Below are positions 15,921 through 23,244 of a stretch of 64,000 nt of DNA, piece by piece. The DNA is taken from contig NZ_CP011393.1 in assembly GCF_001644665.1 (NCBI RefSeq), positions 496,001-560,000 on the forward strand. The letters are read 5' to 3'. Both the position numbers and the translations under genes were made by a program. Position 1 is the stretch's first letter, and each line of letters opens with the position of its first letter. The notes under the pieces are model-generated. The model was not told where the DNA came from. It saw only the letters and a list, made by a program, of their open reading frames with translations, and did not search any database. This stretch comes from Fervidobacterium pennivorans. GTDB lineage: Bacteria; Thermotogota; Thermotogae; Thermotogales; Fervidobacteriaceae.

Positions 15921-16310
15921 GATAATGTTAACTAAAAGTATTGAAACTTTCCAAAAACCGCATTATCCTTTAAAGAGGGGACACCCCCCCCAACCAACTT
16001 TTGACAAAGGAGGTATCCCGATATGAACAACTCAACACTCTCTTGTCCCAAATGCGGTTCTACCAGCTTGTACAAAAATGGTCATGACAAATACGGTAAC
16101 CAACAATTCCTTTGCAAACTCTGCCATCATTCCTTCAAACTTTCCCATTCTCACAAACGCAAAAACTTCTCTTTCCATTATCCCAAATGCACTTCTTGTG
16201 GTAGGTCTAAGGCTTTTGTGTAGTGCAGAATCTTTGGAAAACGCACAATGGTAATATCAATCTCATTCTTTCACAATTACACTCTTTCATCACTACAAGT
16301 TAACACTATC
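15921..16310 (+). mobile_element. Internally deleted IS copy (about 390 bp)
   Basis: This is a deletion derivative of the full element at 49139-50197. It keeps the left terminal inverted repeat GATAATGTTAACT, the leader with a GGGG/CCCC hairpin, the first part of the transposase and the right end AGTTAACACTATC. About 670 bp between the second CxxC of the zinc region and the transposase 3' end are missing. It is flanked by CAAGACT on both sides (15914-15920 and 16310-16316), a target-site duplication of about 7 bp. Without the catalytic core it could only move in trans. Confidence 0.92.
16023..16223 (+). pseudogene. Truncated transposase (zinc-finger part only)
   Basis: A 66-residue remnant. 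The first 60 residues are almost identical to the N-terminus of the complete transposase, including the C-x2-C pairs at 8/11, 31/34 and 56/59; then the deletion junction adds RSKAFV and a stop. All of the DDE catalytic region is gone. If translated, it would be a free DNA-binding domain that could compete with the full transposase at the inverted repeats; that is speculation. Confidence 0.85.
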
Positions 16311-16328: not shown

Positions 16329-16778
16329 TCATTCATACAAGACAGCTTTAATCATAGCAGGCTCTAACCTGAATTTTGACCCCTTACCTTGCAAAAAGTG
16401 GTGAGCAGCAAGCAAATGAATAGATAACTCACTGAACATAAGCTCTTTACCGTTATTCAAATTCTTTACTAACGCTACTCTTTTTCTAAAAATCCCATCT
16501 TGGAATGGACATGGTAAAAATCCCCTCGCCTCGTCTACTCGTATCTCCCATTTTTCATATTTTATAGGTTCTCCTAAACCTTTCAACCCCTCTTTCATGA
16601 GTTTTCTCATAAGCTTGGCTACTTCAACAAAATCTAAACCGAGGTATTGAAACTCTTCTTCGTCAGCAGTGATTATGTCTACAATATTTCTGTCGTCATC
16701 TCCCAAAAATCCATCTGCTGTAATCTTTCCTGGTTTCATGTTTTCTTGTGCTTTAATATACTTGGGAGTCATTTTCAT
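16329..16778 (-). CDS. Uncharacterised protein at the end of the nqr operon
   Basis: A 149-residue soluble protein I do not recognise. It has no signal peptide, membrane helix or cysteine cluster (one Cys in LPCPFQDG); notable segments are GFLGDDDRNIVDIITADEEEF, split by acidic residues, and HLLAAHHFLQGKG. It follows nqrF by 21 nt with its own GGGGGG site, so it is the last gene of the nqrBCDEF transcript. Possible roles include assembly or regulation of the complex. It is far too short, and wrong in sequence, to be NqrA. The deleted IS sits just downstream. Confidence 0.7.
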   Translation of the reverse strand: MKMTPKYIKAQENMKPGKITADGFLGDDDRNIVDIITADEEEFQYLGLDFVEVAKLMRKLMKEGLKGLGEPIKYEKWEIRVDEARGFLPCPFQDGIFRKRVALVKNLNNGKELMFSELSIHLLAAHHFLQGKGSKFRLEPAMIKAVLYE

Positions 16779-16799: not shown

Positions 16800-17909
16800 T
16801 TATGCAAACTTGTCGTAGTAAACATCCTTTATGCCGTACTTATCAAAGACTTGAACACAAGCGTTTATCATCCCTGGACTGCCACACAAATACCCTTCTT
16901 TTGGTGTGTCTTGTGGTATAACTGTTGCCAAGTACTTGTCCAAAACGTTTGTTATGAGACCAGTTTCGCCTTGCCAGTCATCTTCTGGAAGAGGATCTGA
17001 GAGAGCAGGGATGAAATGAAACTTTGGCCACCTCTTTTCAAGTTCTTGGAACAACTCCACGTAATAAAGGTCTCGTTTGCTACGTGCACCAAAGAAATAC
17101 CACACATTTCTCTCTGTTATTCCGCGTTCCCACATGTCAAGTATAATAGATTTTATAGGTGCCATTCCGCTTCCACCGGCAACCATTATCATATCAGCGT
17201 TCGTTTCTCTCATATAGAATTCACCGAAAGGTCCAACTACTTCGACCACATCTCCTTCTTTCATATATTTATGCACGTAAGTCGTTGCAATTCCACCTGG
17301 AACTAATCTTATTAATAACTCAATATGGTTCTTGTCGCTGGGCGAGGAAGATATAGAATATGCCCTTTGTGTAGGTTCTTTAATGTTCTCATATGGCGGA
17401 ATAACTAATTGGACATACTGACCTGCCTTAAAGTTTATCTCGTTAGGTTCCACTAAACGGATTCTGAGTTCCTTGATATCGTAAGTTACATCTTTAATAC
17501 TCTCAACAATACCCCTAAACTTTTTGATGTTGAAAAGCTCTTCTGGCAAATATATTTTTATGTCTTTTTTCAATTTTATCTGACAAGCCAACCTTATATT
17601 TTCAGCCATTTCTTCTTTTGACATATAAGGTAGTTCGGTTGGTAGATGAGGACCAACGTCAGATAACACTTTCACTTTACAGGCACCACAACTACCTCTT
17701 CCACCACATGCAGAAGGAACGAATATCCCGGCTGAGCTAAGTGTATGGAGAAGAGGTGCTCCACCTTTCACTTTTAACTTCTTCTTTCCGTTATTAATAT
17801 CAATTTCTACTTCTCCGTAGTTGTTGACAACGCCATCAACAATGACTATCATCAAAGCCAAAGCAGAACTAATTATTGATACCACCAAAGGGGCAACGAT
17901 TATTTCCAT
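16800..17909 (-). CDS. nqrF: NQR-type NADH dehydrogenase subunit F (2Fe-2S/FAD)
   Basis: NqrF is the electron-input subunit of the Na+-translocating NADH:quinone reductase. Visible in order: one N-terminal membrane helix (5-28), a 2Fe-2S ferredoxin domain with Cys 68, 74, 77 and 109 (CGGRGSCGAC and RLACQ), an FAD domain with RAYSISSSP, and an NAD domain with MVAGGSGMAPIKS and the terminal YLCGSPGMINACV. At 369 residues it is shorter than the Vibrio protein (about 408). The start is ATG 17909 behind GGTGGTGAT, rather than GTG 17921 inside that site. It is preceded by nqrE, 27 nt away. Confidence 0.92.
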   Translation of the reverse strand: MEIIVAPLVVSIISSALALMIVIVDGVVNNYGEVEIDINNGKKKLKVKGGAPLLHTLSSAGIFVPSACGGRGSCGACKVKVLSDVGPHLPTELPYMSKEEMAENIRLACQIKLKKDIKIYLPEELFNIKKFRGIVESIKDVTYDIKELRIRLVEPNEINFKAGQYVQLVIPPYENIKEPTQRAYSISSSPSDKNHIELLIRLVPGGIATTYVHKYMKEGDVVEVVGPFGEFYMRETNADMIMVAGGSGMAPIKSIILDMWERGITERNVWYFFGARSKRDLYYVELFQELEKRWPKFHFIPALSDPLPEDDWQGETGLITNVLDKYLATVIPQDTPKEGYLCGSPGMINACVQVFDKYGIKDVYYDKFA

Positions 17910-17936
17910 ACTTATCACCACCCAACATCACTATAA

Positions 17937-18533
17937 TCACTGAACGTTTATCATACCGGCAAAGCCGATAAATGCCATTGCCATTATCCCAATGGTGATA
18001 AGCGTTATACCAACACCCTTAAGCGGAGCTGGAACTGGCGCATTTTCTGTCTTCTTTCTGATAGCTGCAAGAAGAACAATTGCAAGCCACCAGCCAATTC
18101 CACTACCGAGTCCAAAAAAGACAGATTGAATGAAGGAATAGTTTCTAAGTTGCATAAACAAAGCTACACCGAGAATCGCACAGTTAACTGTTATTAAGGG
18201 TAGAAAAATACCAAGGACCATGTAAAGATTGGGTGAAACTCTGTCTATTATCATCTCAAGAACTTGGACAACGGCTGCTATTACGATGATGTAGATTATG
18301 TATCTAAGATAACCTATATCTAGAGGGGTTATCACGTATCTTTCTAGAATCCAGTTAAGTCCAGTTGTTATTGTCATAACAAGCGTTACTGCAATGCCTA
18401 AGCCATTGGAAGATTTCAAATCCTTCGAAATGGAAATAAACGAACACATTCCTAGAAAGTTTGTGAGTAGTATGTTACTAGTAAAAATGGAAGCGAAAAA
18501 TAACACTAATGGATTAATGTTAGGATAAATCAT
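17937..18533 (-). CDS. nqrE: NQR subunit E
   Basis: A 198-residue six-helix membrane subunit, exactly the family length. It carries FLGMCSF in helix 1 and IFLPLITVNCAILG in helix 4, whose cysteines hold the membrane 2Fe-2S centre shared with NqrD. The FLGMC form and the GSGIGWWLAIVLLAAIR segment point to NqrE rather than the paralogous RnfA. The start codon overlaps the nqrD stop (ATGA), so translation is coupled. Confidence 0.92.
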   Translation of the reverse strand: MIYPNINPLVLFFASIFTSNILLTNFLGMCSFISISKDLKSSNGLGIAVTLVMTITTGLNWILERYVITPLDIGYLRYIIYIIVIAAVVQVLEMIIDRVSPNLYMVLGIFLPLITVNCAILGVALFMQLRNYSFIQSVFFGLGSGIGWWLAIVLLAAIRKKTENAPVPAPLKGVGITLITIGIMAMAFIGFAGMINVQ

Positions 18534-19156
18534 TTCTTTTCACCCCCTGTGGACTGGTTGACATCCTTTTTAATCTGCATACCTCTGACTATCCAAATGA
18601 AGGAGGCTAAAACGAAGAACGCACTTGGTGGCATAACCATTATCGTCCACTTTGGGAAGGAATTAGGAAGAACTTGGAAACCAAGGACTGTACCAAATCC
18701 CAGAAGTTCTCTAAAGAACGCAACAACAACCAAAACGAACATATATCCAAGCCCTGCTGTAAAACCATCCCAGAACGAAATCAACGGTTTGTTCCCCTGA
18801 GCAAAAGCTTCTGCACGTCCCATGATTATACAGTTCGTAATAATCAAACCAACGTACGGTCCGAGTGCTTTACTTACGTCAGGAGCGTAAGCTCTGAGGA
18901 CTATATCGACCATAATAACGTAGAATGATATGACAAGCACTTGTGTAATCATCCTGACCTTTCTTGGAATTAAGTTTCTCATCGCAGAAATTGTGAAGTT
19001 GGAAAGCGCGGTTACAAGTGTAACACCGATAGTCATTATGAGTGTATTTCTCAAATTGTTGGTAACGGCGAGTGTGGAACATATACCTAATATCTGCACA
19101 ATTACTGGGTTTTCGAGCCAAAAGTTATTTTTCAAAATCTTTTTGAAATCGGACAT
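18530..19156 (-). CDS. nqrD: NQR subunit D
   Basis: A 208-residue six-helix membrane subunit, inverted in topology relative to NqrE. It shows VQILGICSTLAVTNNLRNT and the second cysteine segment LIITNCIIMGRAEAFA; these cysteines complete the intramembrane Fe-S site. The sequence fits NqrD better than RnfE. Start ATG 19156 follows GGGGGTGA, one base after nqrC ends. Confidence 0.92.
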   Translation of the reverse strand: MSDFKKILKNNFWLENPVIVQILGICSTLAVTNNLRNTLIMTIGVTLVTALSNFTISAMRNLIPRKVRMITQVLVISFYVIMVDIVLRAYAPDVSKALGPYVGLIITNCIIMGRAEAFAQGNKPLISFWDGFTAGLGYMFVLVVVAFFRELLGFGTVLGFQVLPNSFPKWTIMVMPPSAFFVLASFIWIVRGMQIKKDVNQSTGGEKK

Positions 19157-19157
19157 A

Positions 19158-19766
19158 TCAGTTCACCCCCAGTAACGATTTAAGAATAGGGATATACGTT
19201 GCAATTATCTTTTCTATAGACTTAGATGTTAACGTAGCCCCAGTTATTGCGTCAACTTGTCCATCATCTTTGGAATCAGGAACCTTCGTTGTCGATACTA
19301 AAACCTTACCATTAACGATTGCTTCGTTTCTAAATTGTTCTTTGAACCAACTTTCCTCAATTCGGCCTCCAAGACCAGGTGTTTCACTTTGTGAGATAAA
19401 ATCTATTCCTACGATTCTTGAAACGTCACTATTAACAGCTAGTACACCAGAAATATTCCCCCACAAGCCACTTCCATTGAAAAGAATGGCATAAACTTTC
19501 TCACCATCTACTTCCGCAGAAAACAGATTGTATGAATCCTTCGTTTCCATAGTAACTTTTGATTTGAAAATATCGATGGCTTCATCATCGCTCGTATATG
19601 GAATTCCCATGGCATTAAGAACAGCCCGAATCATGAACAATTCTTGATTCTTTTTCACTTGCTGTGAAGTCATAACATTTAAACCAGAAAGGACAACAAG
19701 AAACGCAAATGATACTATGAATGTGAAAATAACAGTGTAAACTTTACTATCTCTATCGAATCTCAT
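19158..19766 (-). CDS. nqrC: NQR subunit C, covalent FMN carrier
   Basis: A 202-residue protein with one N-terminal membrane helix (9-30) and an extracytoplasmic FMN-binding domain. The flavinylation motif DAITGATLTS is at 172-181, with Thr178 as the expected phosphoester-linked residue. SETPGLGGRIEESWF is another family hallmark. It is shorter than Vibrio NqrC (257). The start overlaps the nqrB stop by 4 nt. Flavinylation would need ApbE, which is not in this window. Confidence 0.92.
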   Translation of the reverse strand: MRFDRDSKVYTVIFTFIVSFAFLVVLSGLNVMTSQQVKKNQELFMIRAVLNAMGIPYTSDDEAIDIFKSKVTMETKDSYNLFSAEVDGEKVYAILFNGSGLWGNISGVLAVNSDVSRIVGIDFISQSETPGLGGRIEESWFKEQFRNEAIVNGKVLVSTTKVPDSKDDGQVDAITGATLTSKSIEKIIATYIPILKSLLGVN

Positions 19767-20725
19767 GCTTCCACCTTCTTCTCAGAAGCATCATTGCTTA
19801 TGCTCTTTTTTGGCTTTTTAACTTTTTTGTCCTTAACAATCTCATCAAGAAGAGGAGCGAACATATTTCCAATCAGTATTGCAAAGCTCCATCCCTCGGA
19901 GAATAAAGAAAATGTTCTAATAACTACTCCAGATAAACCTATAATTATCCCATATATCCACATTGACTTGACTTTCTTAGGTGCCGTTATAGGTTCTGTT
20001 GCCATGAAAACAGTAATAAATAGCAAACTTCCAGACAACATCGCAGGAACCGTAGGTAAGGATTTTGGAACGTTGAAAAGATCCAGCAAAAAGGTGAGAA
20101 GCACGGCTGAACCATAGGTTGAAACCATCAATCTCCAGTTTGCAGTCTTTGTCCATATCAAATAAATTGCAGCCAATAATATGAGTAAAACAGGTGCCTC
20201 GCCAATGGCTCCAGCCCGCCAACCAAGTAACAAATTAAATAAATCCACATTCTGCCCATTTCGGAGAATTTGCAACGGCGTTGCAGAAGTCGTTGCGTCC
20301 AAGCCAAACAAAGATGGTTTAAGCCAACCAGATGTCATATAAAGTGGGAAGGTTATGTATATAAACAACCTGCCAACGATTGCAGGATTAAAGACATTTC
20401 TACCAAATCCGCCATATACCTCTTTTCCAAAAGCCACACCAAAGGCGATTCCTATTATCGCAACCCAAAATGGGACAGAAGGTGGTAAAGAAAGCAAAAA
20501 CAACATGGCTGTTACCAGAACTGCCTCGCTTACAGGCTTATTCTTACGTCTTTCAAAGAGATATTCGACAAAGATAGCAGTGAGAAAAACCCAGAATCCT
20601 AACAAAATAACGCGCAATCCATATGCAAAGATGGAGAACAACAAAATAGGTGTGAGTGCATAGAGCATCTTTCTCATCATGGGTTGTTTCTGGAACTTTA
20701 TAAGACCTGTGGAACCCATTCTCAC
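19763..20725 (-). CDS. nqrB: NQR subunit B, sodium channel and covalent FMN subunit
   Basis: A 320-residue polytopic protein with about ten helices. GKEVYGGFGRNVFNPAIVGR (101-119) and VFMATEPITAP are NqrB/RnfD hallmarks. The FMN attachment motif is DATTSATPL (143-151), Thr149 being the likely site; the flanking form is unusual compared with the SGAT of Vibrio. Relative to Vibrio NqrB (415 residues) it lacks most of the long N-terminal extension. It is the first gene of the operon: no nqrA precedes it. The start is GTG 20725 or ATG 20719, both after AGGGGG. A short basic tail rich in Lys ends the protein. Confidence 0.9.
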   Translation of the reverse strand: MRMGSTGLIKFQKQPMMRKMLYALTPILLFSIFAYGLRVILLGFWVFLTAIFVEYLFERRKNKPVSEAVLVTAMLFLLSLPPSVPFWVAIIGIAFGVAFGKEVYGGFGRNVFNPAIVGRLFIYITFPLYMTSGWLKPSLFGLDATTSATPLQILRNGQNVDLFNLLLGWRAGAIGEAPVLLILLAAIYLIWTKTANWRLMVSTYGSAVLLTFLLDLFNVPKSLPTVPAMLSGSLLFITVFMATEPITAPKKVKSMWIYGIIIGLSGVVIRTFSLFSEGWSFAILIGNMFAPLLDEIVKDKKVKKPKKSISNDASEKKVEA

Positions 20726-21034: not shown

Positions 21035-21076
21035 TAAGAAATTCAAAGTTTAACCTAAGAAATTCAAAGTTTAACC
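21035..21076 (+). repeat. Two tandem 21-bp repeats in the leader
   Basis: TAAGAAATTCAAAGTTTAAC plus a final C occurs at 21035-21055 and again, identically, at 21056-21076. It is followed by GGATTTCT, which can pair with AGAAAT in the repeat, and then TTTTTTT. The position, about 30-70 nt after the predicted transcription start, suits a regulator-binding site (two sites two helical turns apart) or a weak attenuator. Confidence 0.8.
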
Positions 21077-21144: not shown

Positions 21145-22026
21145 ATGAGTAAGTACAGACTGATTTTTGTGTTACTAAGCATAGCTATCTTTACAGGTTT
21201 TCTGTTTGCGGGGCATCTTGATAAGTTTTTTGACATTCAGAAGTTCAAAGGAGAATACAAAATAATTTCCTCTGAAACTTTGCAGAAGACTTCGGGATGG
21301 GTTTCTGTGGAAGGTGTTGTATATAACCTTGGAACTTCCGCACCAGCTAAAAAATTTGTCACGTTATCAGAGGTAGATTCAAAACTTCTTACAAATGATA
21401 AGATTGTTGGATTTCTTGGTGTTACGATTTCTGAACTTTCGAAGTACAATGGAAAAAACGCACCTATAATGGTTGCTGTTAACGGGATAGTTTACGATCT
21501 TTCTGCTTCAAAATCATGGGCAGGAGGAACACATAAAAATCAGCACGTTGCTGGTCAGGATTTGACTTACGACATCTTAAAACTCTCACCACATGGCATT
21601 TCTAAAATAAAATCGTTCCCATCCTACGGTGTTCTCGTTTTCACCCCAGATGAGCTGATTAAATACGACGGAAAGCAACAAAAGAAAATCTACGTTTCTG
21701 TTTACGGTATCATCTATGATGCCACCCAGTCCCGTAAATTTACAGGTGGTGAGCATTATGGTCATGATATGGGAGTAGATCTCACGAGTGAAATACTCTC
21801 GCTTCAAGGACACGTTAATTTGCTCAGCAAGTTGTATCCTATTGGACTGTATGTTTTCAACGAGAAAACCATCTCGAAATTCAATGGAAAAGAAGGTAAA
21901 CCTTTTGTCATTGTAGAAGACATTGTGTATGATGTGTCCAAAAATGCACAAGGAATAAAAGCAGGAACGATTTACGATGGTCAACATCGCAAAGAGTGGT
22001 TGCTTGTGGGATTTAGGCTGAACTGA
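21145..22026 (+). CDS. Exported protein with repeated cytochrome b5-like heme-binding modules
   Basis: A 293-residue protein with a signal peptide (about 1-22, no lipobox) and four related modules resembling the predicted heme/steroid-binding family COG4892: about 40-90 (degenerate), 92-166, 166-237 and 237-293 (short). Each has a YxGKxxxxxxVxVxGxVYD strand pair. Modules 2 and 3 carry the candidate axial histidines: H130, H134 and H150 (GGTHKNQHVAGQDLT, SPHG), and H204, H207 and H223 (GGEHYGHDMGVDLT, QGH). The others probably do not bind heme. It is transcribed divergently from nqrBCDEF and just before a diheme-b-like membrane protein; an extracytoplasmic electron carrier is the natural inference. 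AGGAGGTG precedes the ATG. Confidence 0.75.
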   Translation: MSKYRLIFVLLSIAIFTGFLFAGHLDKFFDIQKFKGEYKIISSETLQKTSGWVSVEGVVYNLGTSAPAKKFVTLSEVDSKLLTNDKIVGFLGVTISELSKYNGKNAPIMVAVNGIVYDLSASKSWAGGTHKNQHVAGQDLTYDILKLSPHGISKIKSFPSYGVLVFTPDELIKYDGKQQKKIYVSVYGIIYDATQSRKFTGGEHYGHDMGVDLTSEILSLQGHVNLLSKLYPIGLYVFNEKTISKFNGKEGKPFVIVEDIVYDVSKNAQGIKAGTIYDGQHRKEWLLVGFRLN

Positions 22027-22053
22027 AGATAACTTAAGCGGAGTTGGAAATAG

Positions 22054-22431
22054 ATGGTTTACAAAGTATTGGGAACAACAAGTGCTATACTTTTGTTTTT
22101 ACAAATATCTCTTTTTGTTATGAGAAGAGCTTACAAGTATCTTCCAAAGAAACCGAACTGGTTTCCACCAATTCTTAAGTTTCTAAAGAGTGCTCATATT
22201 TACACAGGTATTGCCTTATTAATTATCGGATTTATCCATGGTTACTTTGCTTTGGGAACGATAAAATTACACACGGGTCTTATTCTTTGGATGGGTATAC
22301 TTTTTGCATTTTTAGGTTTCTTGTTCAAAAACAAGTTTGGTAAAAAGTGGATAGTATACCACAGAACTTTAGGATTCATCTTGATTGGACTGTTTTTCTT
22401 GCATTATTTCTTCCCATGGCTCATAAAATAA
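22054..22431 (+). CDS. Small four-helix membrane protein, probable diheme cytochrome b
   Basis: A 125-residue integral membrane protein with four helices (about 5-24, 46-67, 70-91, 100-123). His48 and His62 in helix 2 and His103 and His117 in helix 4 are each spaced H-x13-H, the classical arrangement for two stacked b hemes bridging two helices, as in cytochrome b561, b6 and ferric reductases. His73 lies near the membrane face. It has no flavin or NAD domain. It sits 27 nt after the cytochrome b5-like gene and likely passes electrons across the membrane to it. The heme-binding call rests on the histidine geometry alone. Confidence 0.68.
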   Translation: MVYKVLGTTSAILLFLQISLFVMRRAYKYLPKKPNWFPPILKFLKSAHIYTGIALLIIGFIHGYFALGTIKLHTGLILWMGILFAFLGFLFKNKFGKKWIVYHRTLGFILIGLFFLHYFFPWLIK

Positions 22432-22547
22432 GATAAATAACAACCATAAATAAAGGCAACTCTGGAGGAATTCACTACAAAAATTTAACTTATGCTGGGC
22501 TTAGTTATTTAATTTTAACAGAAACTGATCTTTTTTTGGAGGTGAGT

Positions 22548-22886
22548 ATGATGAAATTTCAAGGAACGTGTGGGGAAATTGAGATAACTGAAAAAGCATT
22601 AAAGAAAATAGTCTACCATGCTTTAACCGAACTTTCAGATAGGTTGAGCGTTGCAGCAAAGAACTGGTTACAGAAGTTCCTAAACGTATTTTCGTCAGAA
22701 GAGTCCAACGTTGTTATTAACGAAAACGGAGAAGGTGTTACAGTAGACCTTTATGTTGCTATTGGTTATGGTATAAACATTCCAGAAACTTTTGCTATGG
22801 TGAAAGAAAAAATAATAGAATCATTTAGAAAACACCTTGCGTTGGAAAATGTAGAGGTCAACATGCACGTGACGGAAGTTAAGTGA
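22548..22886 (+). CDS. Asp23/Gls24 family protein
   Basis: A 112-residue cytoplasmic protein of the Asp23 (DUF322) family: GEIEITEKALKKIVYHAL at the start, a beta-rich middle with VTVDLYVAIGYGINIPE, and the amphipathic C-terminal VKEKIIESFRKHL followed by VEVNMHV. In Gram-positive bacteria these proteins associate with the membrane through AmaP and respond to alkaline or envelope stress. Start ATG 22548 follows GGAGGTGAGT. A second, shorter relative follows 28 nt later. Confidence 0.8.
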   Translation: MMKFQGTCGEIEITEKALKKIVYHALTELSDRLSVAAKNWLQKFLNVFSSEESNVVINENGEGVTVDLYVAIGYGINIPETFAMVKEKIIESFRKHLALENVEVNMHVTEVK

Positions 22887-22914
22887 TTTTTCCCTTGAAG
22901 AAGGAGGCATTTAT

Positions 22915-23244
22915 ATGGGAAGAATAGAGATTAATGCTAATGTTTATCAAGAGATAGTTTACAGAAGTGTCTGCGAGTTTTTTGGATTAGAAGATGCTGA
23001 AAAGGCAATTAGTTTCAAAAAGAGTAACGTCATTGTTGAAAAGCTTCAACTGTCGGAAGACGAAGAGAAAGAGAGAGTAAGGTTCACAATACAAGTGCCG
23101 GCAAAGTTTGGCTCGAATTTCCTGGAATTTTCTAACAATGTCGCGTGTCACGTGAAGTCAAAAGTAGAAGAAATAACTGGTATGATTGTAGAAAGTGTTA
23201 ATGTCAAGGTTGTTGATGTTATAACAGAAAACGAGAATGTTTGA
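22915..23244 (+). CDS. Asp23-like small protein
   Basis: A 109-residue protein with the same layout as its upstream neighbour: RIEINANVYQEIVYRSVCEFFG, a beta strand segment VRFTIQVPAKFGSN, and a C-terminal VKSKVEEITGMIVESVNVKVV. It is a diverged Asp23-family paralogue, so the two probably form a hetero-oligomer. GGAGG precedes ATG 22915 and a terminator follows at 23289. Confidence 0.7.
   Translation: MGRIEINANVYQEIVYRSVCEFFGLEDAEKAISFKKSNVIVEKLQLSEDEEKERVRFTIQVPAKFGSNFLEFSNNVACHVKSKVEEITGMIVESVNVKVVDVITENENV

Follow-up and report, generated by a model that had tools for sequence, protein, structure and literature searches.

The window, by which we mean the whole stretch of 64,000 nucleotides from Fervidobacterium pennivorans that was analysed, carries two neighbouring genes that we interpret, with a probability of about 0.7, as encoding a transmembrane diheme cytochrome b (P2) and an exported carrier of the cytb5M type (P1). 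The preliminary description had read two open reading frames of 293 and 125 residues at this position as a trans-membrane heme relay to an extracellular carrier. Both frames are confirmed, and a membrane-to-periplasm electron relay is, as a prediction, well supported by invariant histidine pairs, by structure prediction, by modules of the 6NZX/6VZ6 type and by the exchange of P1 for DOMON or FMN_bind partners among relatives of P2. Homology, the number of modules, histidine conservation, gene pairing and partner exchange are direct computational observations. The two genes are separated by 27 bp and are laid out as follows.

21145..22026, plus strand: P1, a 293-aa open reading frame, exported, with four cytochrome b5-type (cytb5M-like) modules
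21256..21420, plus strand: P1 module 1, truncated, without the His loop (partial module-HMM match; AlphaFold strands at residues 40-94)
21421..21639, plus strand: P1 module 2, complete, residues 93-165 (module HMM), with candidate axial H130 and H150
21640..21858, plus strand: P1 module 3, complete, residues 166-238 (module HMM), with candidate axial H204 and H223
21859..22023, plus strand: P1 module 4, truncated, without the His loop (module HMM)
22054..22431, plus strand: P2, a 125-aa open reading frame, a four-helix membrane protein and predicted diheme cytochrome b (H48/H103, H62/H117)

Closer inspection of P2 confirms the motifs H48-x13-H62 and H103-x13-H117 that had been pointed out in a four-helix protein, and an alignment of distinct relatives from Thermotogota and Bacillota has all four histidines invariant (59 of 59), a degree of conservation far beyond chance. 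The AlphaFold model, built from 14 sequences (pLDDT 93.4), has helices at residues 2-29, 37-67, 74-90 and 98-119, with H48 and H62 on helix 2 and H103 and H117 on helix 4, as in diheme b cytochromes; the arrangement is that of a b6-like diheme four-helix cytochrome b core, with H-x13-H on two parallel helices of the bundle. As the loops after helices 1 and 3 are positively charged, H48 and H103 probably lie at the cytoplasmic side. Structural neighbours of P2 in VIA-align, at Z 8-11, include FdnI and Dcytb as well as a group at Z 9.7-11.2 made up of cytochrome b6, STEAP proteins (STEAP2/4/1 in the full list), SpNOX, CybB, hydrogenase-1 cytochrome b and the designed diheme protein 4D2, but since four-helix bundles reach such Z values by default, these matches are consistent with a diheme cytochrome rather than proof of one. 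Foldseek returned no match to P2 in the PDB under E 0.001, and a profile search with 21 P2 sequences against PDB sequences gave nothing up to E 10.

None of the stand-alone P2 proteins tested scores above the cut-off of a Pfam model, and the only similarities detected for P2 and its relatives are sub-threshold ones to DUF4405, Ferric_reduct and Ni_hydr_CYTB. Against DUF4405 (PF14358; gathering cut-off 26.7) the window P2 scores 13.8 bits, the best stand-alone relative 22.4 and the best fusion 24.2, while the central conserved His set of that family is present throughout (59 of 59). The window P2 is not listed for either PF01292 (prokaryotic cytochrome b561) or PF01794 (ferric reductase), for which relatives reach at most 17.3 bits against a cut-off of 30.1 and at most 20.4 against 28, respectively. 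Taken together, the sub-threshold similarity and the histidine pattern place P2 near the DUF4405, Ferric_reduct and Ni_hydr_CYTB families, and inside none of them.

P1 belongs with cytb5M, the name given to prokaryotic relatives of MAPR proteins. Its N-terminus (residues 1-22) is a hydrophobic, signal-like segment that, judged by eye, ends LFA-GH, and Pfam Cyt-b5 (PF00173) matches the protein in three stretches at E 2e-22 (79.4 bits, cut-off 23.7). Searched against PDB sequences, P1 finds 6NZX (E 1.8e-13) and 6VZ6 (E 1.2e-8), both ranking above PGRMC1. With the AlphaFold model (pLDDT 76.5), Foldseek likewise finds the cytb5M fold nearest: 6nzx at E 2.1e-7 (50% identity, 1.5 Å rmsd, target TM 0.88) and 6vz6 at E 3.6e-6, against E 8e-4 for classical b5. 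The count of four related modules made in the preliminary description is borne out by a module HMM, which resolves them as two complete and two truncated copies. The number of complete modules varies, there being four in P1 relatives of family f10 (e.g. L017, L021); module 3 is degenerate in three Pseudothermotoga-like copies. A cytb5M module also occurs fused to a multi-helix membrane domain, with no P2 neighbour, in another Thermotogota family (L098:9775-10497, plus strand).

The histidine triplets H130/H134/H150 and H204/H207/H223 put forward earlier are present in P1, but not all of their members make plausible ligands. With the module HMM run over 30 P1 proteins from Thermotogota, five proteins from Clostridia and the two PDB sequences, 76 module copies, those of 6NZX and 6VZ6 included, have His at the positions of both H130 and H150. 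Four more, in which the second position was scored as G, read PGH there, so that the histidine is present and the alignment is off by one; a few copies are degenerate. Many modules that are intact in other respects have Y, F, I or V in place of H134, and on these alignments we discarded H134 as an axial ligand. As H134 varies and GxH and PH are kept, the likely axial pairs, judged from the alignment, are H130 with H150 and H204 with H223, and with modules 2 and 3 complete and 1 and 4 truncated, two hemes are predicted for the window P1. Some 70 bp ahead of the start of P1, at 21035-21076 of the window, lie two exact head-to-tail copies of the 21-bp unit taagaaattcaaagtttaacc, possibly an operator.

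The strongest argument that P2 serves transmembrane electron transfer is that one membrane protein is found beside, or fused to, three unrelated extracytoplasmic redox domains: cytochrome b5-type, DOMON and FMN_bind. Two Thermotogota genomes (G038, G046) carry P2 without a P1 match, and in both P2 is directly followed by the gene of a DOMON protein (E 1e-12 and 3e-14); these are the only DOMON matches among 103 Thermotogota genomes. A convergent DOMON gene stands beside P2 in four Halobacteroidaceae/Bacillota MAGs. At nine clostridial loci, five from a contig scan and four from a genome search, the gene just upstream of P2 codes for a cytb5 protein of one module that has a lipobox-like cysteine; they amount to about eight independent cases as L112 and L127 look like one locus. 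In a sample of one clostridial class (391 genomes, 21 with P2), nine open reading frames are fusions of P2 to a C-terminal FMN_bind domain with an SGAT-type motif (E 3e-16 to 5e-12 in the four scanned), and four of the nine lie behind rnfA- and rnfB-like genes (L139 being one checked case). Exchange of heme for flavin carriers is in itself a theme already described (PMC8238504).

A fifth histidine of P2, H73, follows these partners. The position is His in 47 of the 59 relatives, Asn in ten and Gly in two; all nine FMN_bind fusions (L139-L145, L147, L148) have Asn, and P2 proteins beside heme partners mostly have His. Two genomes that keep P2 without P1 (G071, G073) also have a residue other than His here. 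The residue at position 73 may be a marker of where P2 meets its outside carrier.

Relatives of P1 and of P2 are each present in 44 of 103 Thermotogota genomes. With one marginal P2 match left out, both occur in 36 genomes, P1 alone in eight, P2 alone in seven and neither in 52 (Fisher 4e-13, a value that ignores phylogeny). Where both genes are intact they lie, as a rule, next to each other on one strand, and the junction between them is short or an overlap (about -13 to +31 bp). With genus names taken from titled loci or inferred, P1 precedes P2 in the window's genus and in genomes of Pseudothermotoga type; Thermosipho and family f10 have P2 first. There are exceptions to adjacency: the two genes are 238 kb apart in G063, and they are also separated in a genus with large genomes (g27, probably Mesotoga). 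In Thermosipho the arrangement is korA-korB-P2-P1, with a gap of 15 bp behind the 2-oxoacid:ferredoxin oxidoreductase genes. NfnAB-like genes by the pair in three genomes were downgraded, the gap being 230-330 bp in two and an extra open reading frame intervening in the third. In the window itself, the pair is immediately followed by two tandem Asp23-family genes (22536-23244, plus strand).

The pair is not indispensable, given that the closest relative (G070) has a broken P2 and has kept P1. Its P2 (L067, near positions 963110-963357 of that record) is a pseudogene with about 145 bp deleted, a frameshift and H103 replaced by Asn; its P1 is intact, 91% identical to that of the window, with dN/dS near 0.2. 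The P2 of G065 also looks frameshifted. Such decay could indicate relic genes, or proteins that bind no heme and keep their histidines for another reason, be it metal or structure, and a phylum without heme synthesis (see below) would fit that view. We nevertheless regard it as the least probable of the readings considered, as exactly the four ligand positions are retained in 59 of 59 relatives and purifying selection is strong (pN 0.12, pS > 0.8), which we count in favour of the heme relay.

A candidate source of the electrons lies among the genes on the other side of P1.

16800..20725, minus strand: nqrB-nqrC-nqrD-nqrE-nqrF cluster, divergent from the pair and without nqrA; possible electron source
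16329..16778, minus strand: a 149-aa protein that falls in no known family, encoded behind nqrF; a homologue stands between nqrF and P2 in Clostridia

The window NqrF scores above its NCBIfam cut-off. Of the six subunits NqrA-F of Na+-NQR, only NqrB-F are present; among the 103 Thermotogota genomes no NqrA exceeds the cut-off and the matches to its model are RnfC-like, the one in the own genome being taken as RnfC on account of its position beside RnfD. The own genome also encodes ApbE. A survey from 2014 (PMC4014512) had reported that Thermotogae have no nqr operon. The 149-aa protein has no Pfam or NCBIfam match and is 39% identical to the product of L134:1012-1467 (E 1e-34); it represents an unnamed NQR-associated family, found behind nqrF in the window's genus too. 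In three other clostridial loci P2 follows a homologue of this protein with short gaps, and nqrF stands immediately before in two of these, the third being at a contig edge. Between a hydrolase gene and the nqr cluster of the window lies a short zinc-ribbon open reading frame (16023-16223, plus strand) that by eye resembles the N-terminal part of an IS transposase.

In a narrower form of the heme relay, the extracytoplasmic flavin (NqrC) of an NqrBCDEF complex that lacks NqrA would reduce the hemes of P1 and P2 instead of a quinone, thereby coupling Na+ pumping to an outside acceptor. In the window's genus nqrB is the divergent neighbour of the pair, directly or a few genes off, and the clostridial loci with nqrF, the 149-aa homologue and P2 in a row, the lack of NqrA in the phylum and the presence of ApbE all agree with this. 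The link to NQR had been suggested earlier, with a survey of co-occurrence as its check, and in the 103 genomes P2 and NQR are found together in 37, P2 alone in six, NQR alone in 16 and neither in 44 (13/1/5/19 by genus), a positive association in counts that carry no phylogenetic correction. The association is imperfect, however, and in the Thermotogota neighbourhoods read the pair adjoins nqrBCDEF in the window's genus only. At least four genomes with the pair have RNF only (G058, G060, G065, G094), which rules out strict dependence on NQR, and 16 have NQR without P2. We consider coupling to NQR less likely than not, and the odds are likewise somewhat against NQR being the main donor. A link to NADH or ferredoxin enzymes recurs around the pair, with the donor not fixed to one of them.

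What can be said of the heme itself? Ferrochelatase was detected in none of the 103 Thermotogota genomes (8 of 14 control genomes were positive), AhbD in none of the 103 above its cut-off, and ALAD, found in 11 controls, was not found in the own genome. Judged by gene content, the known routes of heme synthesis seem to be closed to these heat-loving fermenters. The preliminary description had held that absence of heme synthesis or import genes would count against it, and as regards synthesis the genes are indeed missing. This is the main weakness of the case for a heme relay, and also its main interest: with heme ligands conserved and synthesis genes lacking, scavenging of any heme is implied. 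One might then suppose that P1 is a hemophore, being exported and multi-modular as known hemophores are, and that P2 assists inward transfer of the heme it binds outside, which would suit a phylum that lacks heme synthesis. That would leave unexplained why P2 has flavin-domain partners and lies in RNF/NQR operons, and the four histidines of P2, within predicted membrane helices and arranged as bis-His pairs, look like those of an electron carrier; we consider heme acquisition very unlikely. Reduction of Fe(III) outside the cell for uptake as Fe(II), in the manner of plant and animal CYBDOM, Dcytb and STEAP, is a further alternative. STEAP and Dcytb are among the fold neighbours of P2, and the DOMON partner mirrors CYBDOM ferric reductases (PMC10784544). 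Genes resembling feoA-feoB stand close behind the pair in one Thermosipho genome, but a search of all neighbourhoods found them in that genome only, so we dropped them as a marker of an iron-uptake reductase; redox enzymes are the commoner neighbours. We consider an assimilatory ferric reductase unlikely.

Returning to the electron relay, we infer heme occupancy, the direction of electron flow, the donor and the acceptor as follows. P2 would be a minimal transmembrane cytochrome b of 125 aa and four helices, with two b hemes stacked between helices 2 and 4, which run parallel. A pair of histidines would hold each heme, H48 and H103 the one near the cytoplasm, H62 and H117 the one near the outside. 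Single electrons would pass outward across the membrane by this route to P1, the soluble extracytoplasmic partner, whose string of modules may store them or carry them to an outside acceptor; two modules here, and one to four in relatives, could each hold a bis-His heme, which would have to be scavenged. The P2 family behaves as a plug-in, with P2 retained and the outside carrier replaced, either by a DOMON protein or by an FMN-binding domain fused to P2. The likely role would be to rid the cell of surplus electrons that fermentation leaves on NADH or ferredoxin, by way of complexes of NQR or RNF type, and the pair is a possible electron exit for an NQR without NqrA.

Electron disposal outside the cell has long been observed in Thermotogota, and we know of no mechanism for it. 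Reduction of Fe(III) and sulfur has been reported for the phylum in a review that makes no mention of cytochrome, heme or quinone (PMC7795431), and the conserved pair of predicted b-type cytochrome genes offers a concrete candidate route. If this is correct, heme-dependent electron export is under selection in organisms that do not make heme, which would mean dependence on neighbours for it. One small membrane cytochrome family is moreover seen to pair with three unrelated outside carriers (cytb5, DOMON, FMN_bind) in two phyla. A bolder and rather doubtful extension is that fermenters unable to make heme scavenge it and assemble a b-type equivalent of the multiheme c cytochromes, non-covalent and made of several modules, which NqrA-less NQR or RNF would feed via a minimal four-helix diheme protein, to dump electrons on Fe(III), sulfur or shuttles outside.

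The preliminary description knew of no system with this composition. That stands for the exact pair, of which there is no description in the literature searched, a body of texts with subscription journals mostly outside its coverage; likewise undescribed there are a multi-module cytb5 partner, partner swapping and an apparent lack of heme synthesis. It does not stand for the general plan of a membrane cytochrome with an extracytosolic carrier, which is already known from DUF4405, MsrQ-like and CYBDOM proteins. DUF4405 cytochromes, for which heme B has been shown (PMC11334425), are small membrane proteins with conserved His pairs and a link to extracytosolic flavin carriers, and P2 relatives match their profile weakly (best E 1.8e-4 for a stand-alone protein, 4.9e-5 for an FMN_bind fusion); characterised members are described with six helices, whereas P2 has four and a cytb5 protein as its partner. 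The MsrQ-like/ferric reductase-like proteins (PF01794; PMC8238504) share a diheme transmembrane core and are in some cases joined to FMN-binding domains, as are the clostridial P2 fusions, but they have six helices and often an NAD-binding domain, and P2 falls under the PF01794 cut-off. Cytochrome b561 and CYBDOM (DOMON plus b561) proteins have two b hemes across the membrane, as predicted for P2, and CYBDOM has a DOMON partner, as has P2 at two Thermotogota and four Bacillota loci; CYB561 has more helices, the sequence match of P2 is below cut-off, and the usual partner of P2 is a set of cytb5 modules on a separate protein. Extracytosolic flavinylated systems (RNF/NQR-like, PepSY-like; PMC8238504) show a similar modular exchange of outside flavin and heme carriers, though surveys of them start from apbE/FMN_bind and have no cytochrome b5 or DOMON partners in the texts searched. 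For P1 the nearest comparison is with the archaeal cytb5M proteins 6NZX and 6VZ6 (MAPR-like cytochrome b5; the related cytb5MY proteins are discussed in PMC10093951). Over 74 columns a P1 module and 6NZX have about 50% identity, and the GxH...PH residues are the same in both; the archaeal proteins are single modules, whereas P1 is exported and has relatives with up to four complete modules.
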